DNA of 64,000 nt from Calditrichota bacterium (GTDB lineage Bacteria > Calditrichota > Calditrichia > RBG-13-44-9 > J042), in contig JAADJD010000062.1 of assembly GCA_013150955.1 (NCBI GenBank), forward strand, positions 91,383 through 155,382, read 5' to 3'. Each line of letters opens with the position of its first letter. The first letter of the stretch is position 1. Below are positions 13,509-43,643 of the stretch, piece by piece. The notes beneath the pieces are model-generated. The model searched no databases. It had not been told where the DNA came from and was given only the letters and a program-made list of their open reading frames with translations. The translations under genes were made by a program, and so were the position numbers.

Positions 13509-13592
13509 CACCCATCCCAAAGTTTTCCCGATTCGCCCCATTAATCATCGGCTATCCAATAAACCCTCAACAAGTTTCCATCCAAGATATAA

Positions 13593-13640
13593 TCTTTTTA
13601 TTTGTGTTCATTCGTGTTATTCGTGGTCTCATGGATAAAT
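13593..13640. repeat. Fragment of the dispersed inverted-repeat element (copy A)
   Basis: One arm of the element family described under copy D is present here: TTTATTTGTGTTCATTCG followed by TGTTATTCGTGGTCTCATG. The other arm and the centre are missing. It lies between convergent genes (13465 and 13682). Confidence 0.8.
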
Positions 13641-21244: not shown

Positions 21245-21397
21245 CAATGTGGACTTTTCCCCGTTGCATTAAGTGTTTAAGCATGTAACGACTCGAATTA
21301 CCCTGAATACACAACGCTTAAGTAAAGATGTTCACGCAGATAAAACGAACCGCGATTTGCAAAAATTCCTCTGAAACCATTCGATTTGAAGCCAAGT

Positions 21398-21548
21398 AAT
21401 GCATTGAACCGCGAATCACGCGAATGAACACAAAAAATATCAATTAAAATCACGAATAAACCTCGAAGTGAATTTTCATACAGATCTAATCCAATGGATT
21501 TTATTAATTGGTATTAATCCGTGCAATTCGTGGTCTAACGCAGAATTT
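21398..21548 (-). repeat. Dispersed inverted-repeat element, copy B, about 150 bp
   Basis: A complete copy of the element described under copy D, with its centre in reverse orientation. Left arm: TAATGCATTGAACCGCGAAT, then CACGCGAATGAACACAAA. Right arm: the diverged inverse ending in ATTCGTGGTCTAACGCA. The 510-bp gap between the kinase start and the phospholipase-like gene holds this copy and no other recognised feature. Confidence 0.85.
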
Positions 21549-21757
21549 CGGCTAAATGATAATTCGTGCCAACTCGCATGCATTTTCGGAATCTGAGTTA
21601 ACAATTTGAATGCCCTGTGCAGGGCGTTCAAGCCGGGCAATAGAAACACCTCCCCGATCCATTCAGTGTTTTTTCTGAGAATGTCATCAATATAGACCGG
21701 AACGATGGGGGATTCAAGGGTAAACTGGAGTGAATCAGGCGCTGTGGAGCGAACAGA

Positions 21758-25536: not shown

Positions 25537-25610
25537 TGGGCCCTCCAGGACTCGAACCTGGGACCAGTCGATTATGAGTCGACCGCTCTAACCAACTGAG
25601 CTAAGGGCCC
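25537..25610 (-). tRNA. tRNA with CAU anticodon (Ile2 or elongator Met)
   Basis: 74 nt with a complete cloverleaf: acceptor GGGCCCT/AGGGCCC, D-arm GCTC/GAGC, anticodon stem GTCGA/TCGAC with loop CTCATAA, T-arm CCAGG/CCTGG with TTCGAGT. No CCA is encoded. Anticodon CAU does not begin as an initiator, since the acceptor ends are fully paired. The body resembles bacterial tRNA-Ile2 more than elongator Met, but this cannot be decided here. Confidence 0.95.
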
Positions 25611-25750: not shown

Positions 25751-26082
25751 CCAGATTATACATTCGCCTACGAATCAAACGAATTCACACAAACAAAAAT
25801 AATCAAATCCATTTGATGATATCCGGATGAAAGATGTGTTCCGGGATTTATCCCAGATTATGCAATAGCCTACGAATTACACGAATTAAAACGAATAAAA
25901 AACAATAAAATCCATTTGATGATATCTGGATGAAGATGTGTTCCAGGATTTCTTCGCGATTTTGCAGATATTTTTGGGTTTCATTCGCGTGATTCGCGGC
26001 TTAATGCATGATTTGGGTTTATTCGCTATTTTGAAGATGTTTTTAGAGTTCATTCGCGTGATTGGTGGTTGAATGCATGAGG
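25751..26082 (+). repeat. Dispersed inverted-repeat elements, copy C (one complete, two partial)
   Basis: A partial unit (25751-25850) runs directly into a complete forward unit (25852-26017), which is followed by a right half (26018-26082). The complete unit starts CCCAGATTATGCAATAGCC, has the centre with GGATGAAGATGTGTTCC, and ends TTAATGCATGATTTGGG. The units share their boundary sequences, as if inserted into or recombined with each other. Confidence 0.85.
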
Positions 26083-29575: not shown

Positions 29576-29970
29576 ATGATGAACCGCGAATCACACGAAT
29601 GAACACAAACAAATCCAGATTATGCATCAGACCACGAATGACACGAATGAACACAAATAAACACAGATTATGCATTAGAACCACGAATTACACGAATTAA
29701 CACAAATAAAACCAATAAAATACATTAGATTGTGTCTGGATGAAAATGTGTTCCAGGGTTTATTCGCGATTTTGTTGATATTTTTTGGATTCATTCGTGT
29801 GATTCGCGGTTAAATGCATTATTTGGGATAAAATTTGGATTCTATTTGGATGAAAATGTTTTTCCGGAATATTCGCTATTTTGTTGGTTTTTTTCGAATT
29901 CATTCGCGTGATTCGCGGTTTAACCCATTATCTGGGTCTATTCGTGTGAATTCGTGTCATCCGTAGGCAA
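29576..29970 (+). repeat. Dispersed inverted-repeat element cluster, copy D
   Basis: Reference copy. Complete forward unit 29662-29827: outer end ACAGATTATGCATTAGAACC, arm CACGAATTACACGAATTAAC, centre with CCAATAAAATACATT and GGATGAAAATGTGTTCC, then TTTATTCGCGATTTTG, and an inverted arm TTCATTCGTGTGATTCGCGG, ending TAAATGCATTATTTGGG. Units are about 165 bp. The arms carry internal 10-bp-like periodicity (ACGAAT every 8-9 bp). Two extra left arms (29577 and 29619) precede it and a right half with further arms follows. It lies between convergent genes and holds the 500-bp gap apart from the terminator. Confidence 0.9.
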
Positions 29971-29976
29971 CTACAA

Positions 29977-30004
29977 AAAAGGGTCACCCCGGGGTGACCC
30001 TTTT
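29977..30004 (-). terminator. Terminator of nrdJ, palindromic
   Basis: A perfect 14-bp palindrome with arms AAAAGGGTCACCCC and GGGGTGACCCTTTT. On the - strand it ends in TTTTTTG, giving a good terminator after nrdJ. The central CCCC/GGGG forms the loop. It could also stop the + strand transcript. Confidence 0.8.
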
Positions 30005-33509: not shown

Positions 33510-34427
33510 ATGCAAAGCAAGTCCGGCCCGGCAAAACTCACCATCTACCTGGTTCTGGTTTTTGCCGTGTTCATGACCTCCTGGGCCTCGATTCTGATCC
33601 GCTGGTGTGGCGAGACGCCCGCACTGGTGATTTCCTTCTACCGATTGCTGTGGTCGTTTGTTTTGTTTGGAATGATTGCCTCCCGTTCCGCTCGTAAGAA
33701 CCTGTGGCAGCTAAAAGGCCTCTCCGGCCGCCACTTTATGCTGGTGTTGACTGCCGGAGCCATGCTGGCCCTGCACTTTGCCACCTGGATTGCCTCCCTG
33801 AAATACACCACAGTGGCGCAATCGCTGGTGCTGGAATCCACCCACCCGGTTTTTGCCGTGCTGCTGTCCTGGCTGTGGCTCAAGGAGAAAAGCTCCCTGC
33901 GCACGGGCATTGCCGTTGCCATTACGTTTGTGGGTATCCTCATCATTGGTGGGCACGATGTGACGCTGGCCCCTCGCTATTTCATCGGGGATATGCTGGC
34001 CCTGGTGAGCGCCCTGTTTGTCACCCTTTACCTACTGATCGCTCGCTATCTGCGGGGACATATCGATCTCTCCCCGTACCTGTTCGCGGTATACGGTTCG
34101 GCCACGCTGGTATTGTTGTTTATGAATCTTTCGGTGGGCCACGAACTCATCCGCTACCGCTGGCCGGTTCACCTGCTGATGTTTTTACTGGCGATGGGGC
34201 CAACGGGCATTGGACATTCATTGATCAACTGGGCAGCCCGGCACATCCCGGTTTACCGAATCAACCTCATGCTGCTGGGAGAACTGATTCTGGCTTCCAT
34301 CCTGGCCTATTTGATTTTTCAGGAAGTACCCGCCCGAATGTTTTTCGTGGGGGCACCATTCATCATATCGGGTATCGTTCTCGCCCTGACGGAAACCTCC
34401 CGGACGGATGCTTTAGACCACGAATGA
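33510..34427 (+). CDS. EamA/DMT-superfamily transporter, ten helices
   Basis: 305 aa with ten hydrophobic segments arranged as two EamA repeats. The first includes MTSWASILIRWCGETPALVISFYR and the second LVSALFVTLYLLIARYLR. Family members export amino acids or other metabolites, but the substrate is unknown. The ATG lacks a Shine-Dalgarno and sits 13 bp after a TATAAT. The last codons (TDALDHE-stop) come from the start of repeat copy E, whose arm begins at about 34410. This means that the present C-terminus was shaped by the repeat, though it is a short hydrophilic tail that need not matter for transport. Confidence 0.92.
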   Translation: MQSKSGPAKLTIYLVLVFAVFMTSWASILIRWCGETPALVISFYRLLWSFVLFGMIASRSARKNLWQLKGLSGRHFMLVLTAGAMLALHFATWIASLKYTTVAQSLVLESTHPVFAVLLSWLWLKEKSSLRTGIAVAITFVGILIIGGHDVTLAPRYFIGDMLALVSALFVTLYLLIARYLRGHIDLSPYLFAVYGSATLVLLFMNLSVGHELIRYRWPVHLLMFLLAMGPTGIGHSLINWAARHIPVYRINLMLLGELILASILAYLIFQEVPARMFFVGAPFIISGIVLALTETSRTDALDHE

Positions 34428-34950
34428 CACGAATGAATATAAATAAAAACAAATTGTTAGAAGACAATGATTCCGTAAACAAAACTTGCCGGCACCTTAA
34501 TAATAAGTTTTTTCGAAACGGTTGGTTTTATGCACTAAACCACGAATCACATGAATGAATCATATAAACCCAAATTATGCAATAAACCTCGAATCACGCG
34601 AATGAAGCCAAAAAATATCTGCAAAATCGCGAAAAAACCCAGGAACACATTTTCATCCAGACACAATCCAATGTATTTTATTGGTTTTATTTGTGTTCAT
34701 TCGTGTAATTCGTAGGCTATTGCTTAATCTGGTGTAATTCGTAGGCTATTGCTTAATCTGGGATAAAATATCTACAAAATCGCGAATAAACCAGGGAACG
34801 CATTTTCATCCAGACACAGTCCAATGTATTTTATTGGCTTTATTTGTGTGAATTCGTGTCATTCGTAGGCTATTGCTTAATCTGGGATTATTTTTATTGG
34901 TGTTCATTCGTGTAATTCGTAGGCGAATGCATAATCCGGGTTTAATCATC
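34410..34950 (-). repeat. Dispersed inverted-repeat element cluster, copy E
   Basis: The largest cluster. An arm (34410-34445) supplies the stop of the EamA gene. Other arms follow at about 34519-34560. A complete reverse unit spans 34568-34731, with its centre in the opposite orientation to copy D. A second reverse unit, lacking its outer left end, spans about 34732-34890, and another arm ends near 34945. GTGTAATTCGTAGGCTATTG plus CTTAATCTG is repeated exactly in tandem (34703-34731 and 34732-34760). The 630-bp gap holds nothing else recognisable. Confidence 0.9.
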
Positions 34951-43160: not shown

Positions 43161-43191
43161 AAAACCGATTGGTCTGGTCAGTTTATCCCGG

Positions 43192-43511
43192 TTGATGCAC
43201 TAACCTACGAATTACACGAATAAACACGAACAAAAAGAATAAAATCCGTTTGATTATATCCGGATGAAAAATGTGTTTTATTTGTTTTATTTGTGTTCAT
43301 TCGTGTCATTCGTGGTCTAAAGCATAATTTGGGTTCATGGTTTATCCCAAATTATGCAATCAACCACGAATCAAGCGAATGAATTCGGAAAAAATCAACA
43401 AAATAGCGAATATATCCGGGAAAAACATTTTCACCCAGATAGAATCAAGTGCATTTTATTATTTTTATTGGTGTTAATTCGTGTAATTCGTAGGCTAATG
43501 CACAATTTTGG
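43192..43511. repeat. Dispersed inverted-repeat elements, copy F (one forward, one reverse)
   Basis: F1 (43192-43333) is in forward orientation with part of its centre replaced or deleted between AAAAATGTGTTTTATTTG and the right arm. F2 (43346-43511) is a complete reverse unit starting CCCAAATTATGCAATCAACC. They stand head to head with 12 bp between, and fill the gap between the secreted BPL_N gene and tRNA-Phe. Confidence 0.88.

Positions 43512-43570: not shown

Positions 43571-43643
<73 letters not shown>

Follow-up and report, generated by a model that had tools for sequence, protein, structure and literature searches.

Correia, ERIC and RUP elements have been described as TA-targeting. 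Insertion sequences (ISs) of the IS1380 family generate target duplications of 4-5 bp (PMC12116815), with 5 bp recorded for ISEcp1 (PMC2887853), and the copy numbers quoted in PMC10969869 include 711 for ERIC in Photorhabdus luminescens and >120 for Correia. Here, we describe a family of dispersed repeats from a Calditrichota genome, recognised in a stretch of 64,000 nucleotides (the window), the members of which are very probably gene-less, non-autonomous MITEs with IS1380-type ends, mobilised in trans by the transposase of that IS.

A first-pass annotation of the window, made from the letters alone, had described six intergenic clusters of one design. All six are present and were recovered with a profile built from the units (nhmmer), which finds 15 units in the window, six of them full length (Table 1); ten Markov-shuffled windows (640 kb) gave no profile match at E<=1e-3. 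The orientations that had been assigned to the units are the profile strands, and the proposed size of 165 bp is the median unit length. Two of the clusters need correction. The repeat at 13593 is present only as a partial unit, and the cluster at 29576 comprises one full unit, a second one that is truncated, and additional arms. Its full unit is laid out as terminal inverted repeat (TIR), 9-bp-phased arm, centre GGATGAAAATGTGTTCC, inverted arm and TIR. The outer end also had to be corrected: the true boundary is CCC...GGG, and the 5-bp duplications lie outside it. TRF detected tandems of 48, 54, 69 and 102 bp in the window. Genes for tRNAs lie near two clusters, at window positions 25537-25610 (~140 bp away) and 43571-43643 (~60 bp away).

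Table 1. Repeat units and arms located in the window
Position	Strand	Feature	Basis and remarks
13556..13638	-	Partial unit (model 7-104)	nhmmer 38 bits; beside/overlapping short ORFs
21392..21550	-	Full-length unit, left end degenerate	nhmmer 122 bits
25750..25852	+	Partial unit (left arm and centre), in tandem with 25852..26017	Profile; TRF period 102
25852..26017	+	Full-length unit; 5-bp flanks TTTAT / TTTAT, the target duplication	Profile
26015..26080	+	Partial unit (right arm)	Profile
29615..29661	+	Extra left arm	Profile; TRF period 48
29664..29827	+	Full-length unit in the interval 29576-29970	nhmmer 170 bits
29832..29936	+	Second unit, 5'-truncated	Profile
29939..29978	-	Isolated arm	Profile
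34407..34452	+	Isolated arm	Profile
34569..34732	-	Full-length unit; end pair 34569..34762 bracketed by ATAAA / ATAAA	Profile
34765..34886	-	Partial unit	Profile
34887..34940	-	Isolated arm	Profile
43187..43333	+	Full unit, centre shortened	Profile
43346..43510	-	Full-length unit; pair 43187-43511 bracketed by TTTAT / TTTAT	Profile

Scanning the host genome with a profile of the complete units, a check that the first-pass annotation had proposed, revealed a family that is genome-wide and not local. The census covers 1.986 Mb (49 %) of this genome (G000; 4.07 Mb in 66 contigs) and contains 666 units, 319 of them full length, which make up 3.9 % of the DNA examined. Extrapolation gives a total of ~1,360 units per genome, i.e. 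about 1,400, and the family amounts to about a quarter of the intergenic DNA of the genome. Only 3 of the 666 units lie inside naive ORFs. Median identity is 87 % to the consensus and 91 % to the nearest neighbour. The 165-bp consensus, obtained by iterating the profile on full copies, is CCCAGATTATGCATTAGCCTACGAATTACACGAATTAACACAAATAAAAATAATAAAATACATTGGATTATATCTGGATGAAAATGTGTTCCGGGGTTTATTCGCGATTTTGTTGATATTTTTTGGTTTCATTCGCGTGATTCGCGGTTTAATGCATTATTTGGG, and its termini are the inverted repeats CCCAGATTATGCATTAG. The TIRs (CCCAGATTATGCATT / AATGCATTATTTGGG) have a per-position conservation of mostly 0.7-0.98 and extend over ~17 bp (CCCARATTATGCATTAG). Inside them lie arms built of ACGAAT units in a phase of ~9 bp (CCTACGAAT TACACGAAT TAACACAAA), which are inverted with respect to each other and have the consensus ACGAATTACACGAATTAACAC. 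A 17-mer scan of genome contigs gave 40 matches, about what chance gives for that length, and none was accompanied by an element.

The units are bordered, exactly at CCC...GGG, by a 5-bp target duplication of the pattern WTNAW. Identical 5-mers flank 57 of the 148 isolated full units, where 12.4+-3.3 were expected and the maximum in 2,000 shuffles was 25, and 110 of all 301 full units (28.5+-4.9 expected; shuffle maximum 47). At the isolated full units, inverted 5-mer identity was seen just 7 times in 148 and identity of the flanks at k=6 not at all. TTTAA, TTAAA, TTTAT and ATAAA are the commonest duplications, and in composite units with extra arms the outer ends also carry matching duplications. 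Comparison of filled and empty sites, which had likewise been suggested, was possible with a congeneric genome (G001) that is collinear with the window over 25-44.9 kb and lacks all four of the comparable clusters. At the four cluster sites the G001 gaps are 240-451 bp shorter, whereas the remaining intergenic gaps of the collinear segment vary by 0-90 bp between the two genomes; absence is judged here at the level of the gap, the intergenic DNA of G001 being too diverged for the exact empty-site junction to be resolved. Elsewhere, G001 contains a single related element (L161 2441-2747, in G001:C15) with ATAAT on both sides, the centre of which is a different 9-bp-phased palindrome, i.e. the elements are nested.

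Transposase searches of the host genome yielded seven matches to PF01609 and one to PF13701, and no rve (PF00665) transposases. The PF13701 protein is encoded where contig C18 begins. Profile NF033539 identifies it as a transposase of the IS1380 family (E 6e-65, 219 bits against a cut-off of 180), and it belongs to the single IS1380-family IS found in the genome. The PF01609 matches had at first been taken as unrelated, and the IS1380 element was recognised as the partner once its ends were fixed, which was done without reference to the MITE, by comparing IS copies. On the left, the ends of contigs C14 and C44 both overlap the beginning of C18 and part from each other outside CCCAGATTACGCATTAGAGAATTGAAC (CCCAGATTACGCATTAGAG), the flanks there being ATTAT and TTAAA. 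On the right, the alignment of C18 with C8 stops at ...GCGTAATCTGGG / ...GCGTAATTTGGG, flanked by TTAAA in C8 and AATCT in C18. WTNAW adjoins three of the four observed IS ends, the exception being AATCT. The IS ends (CCCAGATTACGCATTAG; end sequence taken as CCCARATTAYGCAWTAG) equal the MITE ends at 16 of 17 bases and beyond that agree only at background level (9/28), and the stretch common to MITE and IS is just ~17 bp. Outside the units, a search of 2 Mb for the 17-mer with up to 1 mismatch finds nothing but the IS ends. As assembled, the C18 transposase copy is split by a frameshift (83 + 361 aa), an interruption that suits copies of this age. The IS extends across contig breaks and no intact copy was read, which is why a search of 49 % of the genome for transposase-bearing elements between paired ends gave none. 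The earlier remark that the units contain no transposase holds, in that no element combining these ends with a matching duplication carried a transposase gene. The duplication length, read at the MITE units since no IS copy is whole, is 5 bp and within the IS1380 range.

The TIRs, the 5-bp duplication, the absence of the clusters from G001 and the presence of an IS1380 element with equal ends therefore argue strongly that the units are non-autonomous mobile elements of the MITE type, one of two readings offered by the first-pass annotation, and the shared 17-bp ends, together with the 4-5-bp duplications of IS1380, indicate that they are MITEs of the resident IS. We infer that the transposase of the resident IS1380 element, or an intact enzyme related to it, carried out the transposition. 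In the proposed mechanism, the transposase would bind in trans to the ~17-bp terminal repeats of a unit and insert it at AT-rich WTNAW pentamers, where a 5-bp stagger would produce the 5-bp duplication. Copies would then decay neutrally, to the observed median of 87 % to consensus, and would persist almost only between genes.

The body of the unit has counterparts of another kind. The first-pass annotation had found arms with ACGAATTACACGAAT familiar from uncultivated bacteria, and such arms do flank GxxExxY genes (TIGR04256; PF13366, PD-(D/E)XK) in many genomes. In the host genome there is one GxxExxY gene, outside the gene-less units, with an CCTACGAATCACCCGAATAAAACGAA arm upstream of it and, at its 3' end, a MITE that has its own TTTAT/TTTAT duplication. 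Throughout the phylum, GxxExxY genes occur in 37 of 40 genomes, with as many as 11 in one genome, and several of them are broken by stop codons (L070-L099, L212-L229). Read directly, such a gene is seen to be enclosed by a pair of short arms in inverted orientation, as in TCCACGAATTACACGAATGAATACGAATAA-gene-CAATTCGTGAAAATTCCTGAAATTCGTGGA. Inverted pairing between the upstream and downstream flanks is far more frequent than between mismatched flanks (p=1.7e-10) or flanks 600-900 bp away (p=1.8e-7), and the strongest self-repeat lag near these genes is 9. The arm motif differs by protein subfamily (ACGAAT, GATT, ACAGGAT, CACGAAG, CACAGAG or CACGGAT). Protein identity and flank similarity are correlated (Mantel rho=0.26, p=5e-4), also for pairs from different host families (rho=0.22, p=5e-4), although the correlation is of moderate size and the subfamilies were delimited with the data already in view. 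ACGAA-type arms were found at L092, the nearest to the GxxExxY of the host genome (69 % identity), and at the next, L074 and L093. Similarity of the consensus unit to other GxxExxY flanks did not correlate significantly with protein identity to L009 (rho 0.12).

The AlphaFold model of the GxxExxY protein is confident (pLDDT 92) and has a PD-(D/E)XK fold, with SSO0001 (4ic1) the nearest structure (Foldseek E 4.6e-4, VIA-align Z 9.5, rmsd 4.8 A over 103 residues) and lambda exonuclease the next match. No solved relative was convincing by sequence; D78, E88 and K90 are invariant in 22 GxxExxY sequences. Homologues from outside the phylum were read after the rule relating motif to subfamily had been formed, and with the fit judged by eye five follow the rule and one does not. 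Arms of the GATT type accompany the genes of Persicobacter (71 % to the GATT subfamily) and of a viral-collection contig (76 % to the same subfamily; TTGAAC..GATT), and those of Bernardetia and Bacteroides finegoldii, each 53 % to the CACAGAG subfamily, have CACAGAG arms. For the ACGAAT subfamily, a homologue on a viral-collection contig (42 %) has CACGAAA arms and that of Treponema saccharophilum (59 %) a weak ACACGGATT pair only. No GxxExxY was found in the phages searched. Nuclease subfamily and arm motif tend to change together, in this phylum and others.

Dispersed units also occur in other genomes of the set. G017, a single contig, has one GxxExxY gene with seven 135-bp palindromic units around it (L162, G017:C1:2240001-2250000) and at least 91 first-look candidate units (40 scored) spread over the chromosome; dispersed units were not found in three other genomes. 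No fixed duplication was evident by eye at the G017 units or at the bare palindromes of G016. Another MITE with ACGAAT-like arms, for which there are 99 first-look candidates, is found in G027 and has the ends TGAGTYCASTMTAAAAA (L290-L319). It is young, with copies of 123 or 114 bp that are 98-99 % identical, and has a 4-bp duplication (18 of 30 copies, 1.6 expected). Among the matches listed, almost all of its TIR sites (<=1 mismatch) pair at the MITE distance, and no IS with these ends was seen. Because ends and duplication differ between genomes and the inner arms are alike, we distinguish two layers: transposon ends on the outside, which are responsible for movement, and within them a GxxExxY-type palindrome, which is cargo or ancestry. 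On balance, we favour the view that the body of the window units is a gene-less member of the 9-bp-phased palindromes that normally enclose GxxExxY genes, captured between IS1380 ends. The broader proposal, that GxxExxY and its cognate 9-bp-phased palindromes constitute an undescribed selfish element of several phyla from which the window MITE derives by the gain of IS1380 ends, is tentative, and we would sooner doubt it than assert it.

The arms bear on who moves the units, as one might suppose that the GxxExxY PD-(D/E)XK nuclease of the host, and not a DDE transposase, spreads them, much as RAYTs spread REPINs. One nuclease gene accompanies hundreds of palindromes with its cognate arms, and a unit adjoins that gene; GxxExxY genes are bracketed by cognate inverted repeats across the phylum (p=1.7e-10 against mismatched pairs), protein and arm similarity are correlated across host families too, and G017 repeats the pattern of one gene with dispersed candidates (at least 91 at first look). 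We nevertheless consider this improbable. The IS1380 element accounts both for the outermost 17 bp and for the 5-bp duplication, the GxxExxY gene lies outside the MITE ends, and the G027 units, despite similar arms, have other ends (TGAGTYCA...) and a 4-bp duplication, so that neither ends nor duplication are tied to the arms.

A role in place of mobility is less probable still. The first-pass annotation had allowed for a REP/ERIC-like family, and repeats of the REP/ERIC/BIME kind might be kept for a structural or regulatory purpose (hairpin RNA, terminator, nucleoid or gyrase site). The consensus does fold into a long hairpin, and the almost exclusively intergenic units are unevenly placed, with 1.28 per convergent region against 0.43 per tandem and 0.35 per divergent region; such an excess at convergent 3' ends is, however, what tolerated insertion gives. 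Folding and covariation, also recommended in the annotation, were examined for 319 copies at the 58 pairs of the consensus hairpin. Pairing was 85.67 % against 85.62+-0.09 % when whole 3' arms were dealt to other copies, and double changes numbered 107 with either the true or the re-dealt arms. Individual copies pair because the consensus did, and the pairing is not maintained. A target duplication and IS-like ends are not expected of a structural repeat, the same places in congeneric G001 are without units, and no Rfam family matches at the unit sites, the only Rfam matches being to RNase P and tRNAs. As the arms do not covary and the placement fits tolerated insertion, the evidence speaks against a hairpin with a structural or regulatory role. 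Least probable of all is that tandem duplication, gene conversion or recombination was the main route of spread. Arms in tandem and composite units are frequent, with 2-5 units in 188 of 372 clusters, and the TRF tandems of the window are of this nature, but half of all clusters consist of one unit only, and target duplications are present at isolated units. Recombination accounts for the local growth of clusters and not for their dispersal.

With an IS1380-driven MITE as the preferred reading, the mechanism is ordinary, the copy number is extraordinary and the partner IS is identified. The family would be an extreme case of a known kind, with a single IS1380-driven miniature element making up ~4 % of a bacterial genome. 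A literature search found no paper on these repeats or on GxxExxY palindromes, and the association of nuclease and palindrome seems to be undescribed and the novel part. If the selfish-element proposal is true, a nuclease of ~125 aa is carried between inverted arms, with an arm motif that evolves with the nuclease, and its gene-less derivatives have dispersed in the host, where the IS1380 ends brought them to ~1,360 copies. GxxExxY is widespread but unstudied, and the association with arms makes a 'domain of unknown role' a testable system of nuclease-DNA recognition. It would also account for recurrent intergenic repeats of uncultivated bacteria, CACGAATTACACGAAT and CACAGAGGACACAGAG being examples.

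Among described systems, REPIN/RAYT (PMC3116915) is similar in having hundreds of paired inverted palindromes and few enzyme genes, and the GxxExxY palindromes share this layout. However, RAYTs are Y1 transposases, whereas the MITE has the ends of a DDE IS and GxxExxY is PD-(D/E)XK, and REPINs are defined in part by the lack of a target duplication, which here is present and 5 bp long. The units resemble Correia, ERIC and RUP in size, palindromic structure, intergenic position and occurrence in hundreds of copies, and differ from them in the 5-bp WTNAW target and in the lack of any Rfam match at their sites. With the GxxExxY-associated palindromes they share the 9-bp-phased inverted arms, but have no gene between them. 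The IS-derived bacterial MITEs (PMC10969869; TIMEs, PMC4133298) are alike in being short and without an ORF, in their TIRs and target duplication, in sharing the ends of a resident IS, and in their mostly intergenic position, the occurrence of both full-length and truncated copies, and mutual insertion. The units differ from these in number, the ~1,360 copies (3.9 %) being above counts such as the 711 (ERIC) and >120 (Correia) quoted in PMC10969869, in having an IS1380-family partner and in having a GxxExxY-type palindrome as their body. The partner itself is comparable to ISEcp1/ISEc9 (IS1380), with a DDE transposase (NF033539/PF13701) and a 4-5-bp duplication (5 bp here), and the ISEcp1 end CCTAGATTCTACGT, obtained by reverse-complementing the IRL given by PMC12116815, begins similarly to CCCAGATTACGCAT. 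ISEcp1, however, moves neighbouring genes by way of a poorly matching right repeat, whereas here gene-less elements with two good ends have been amplified.
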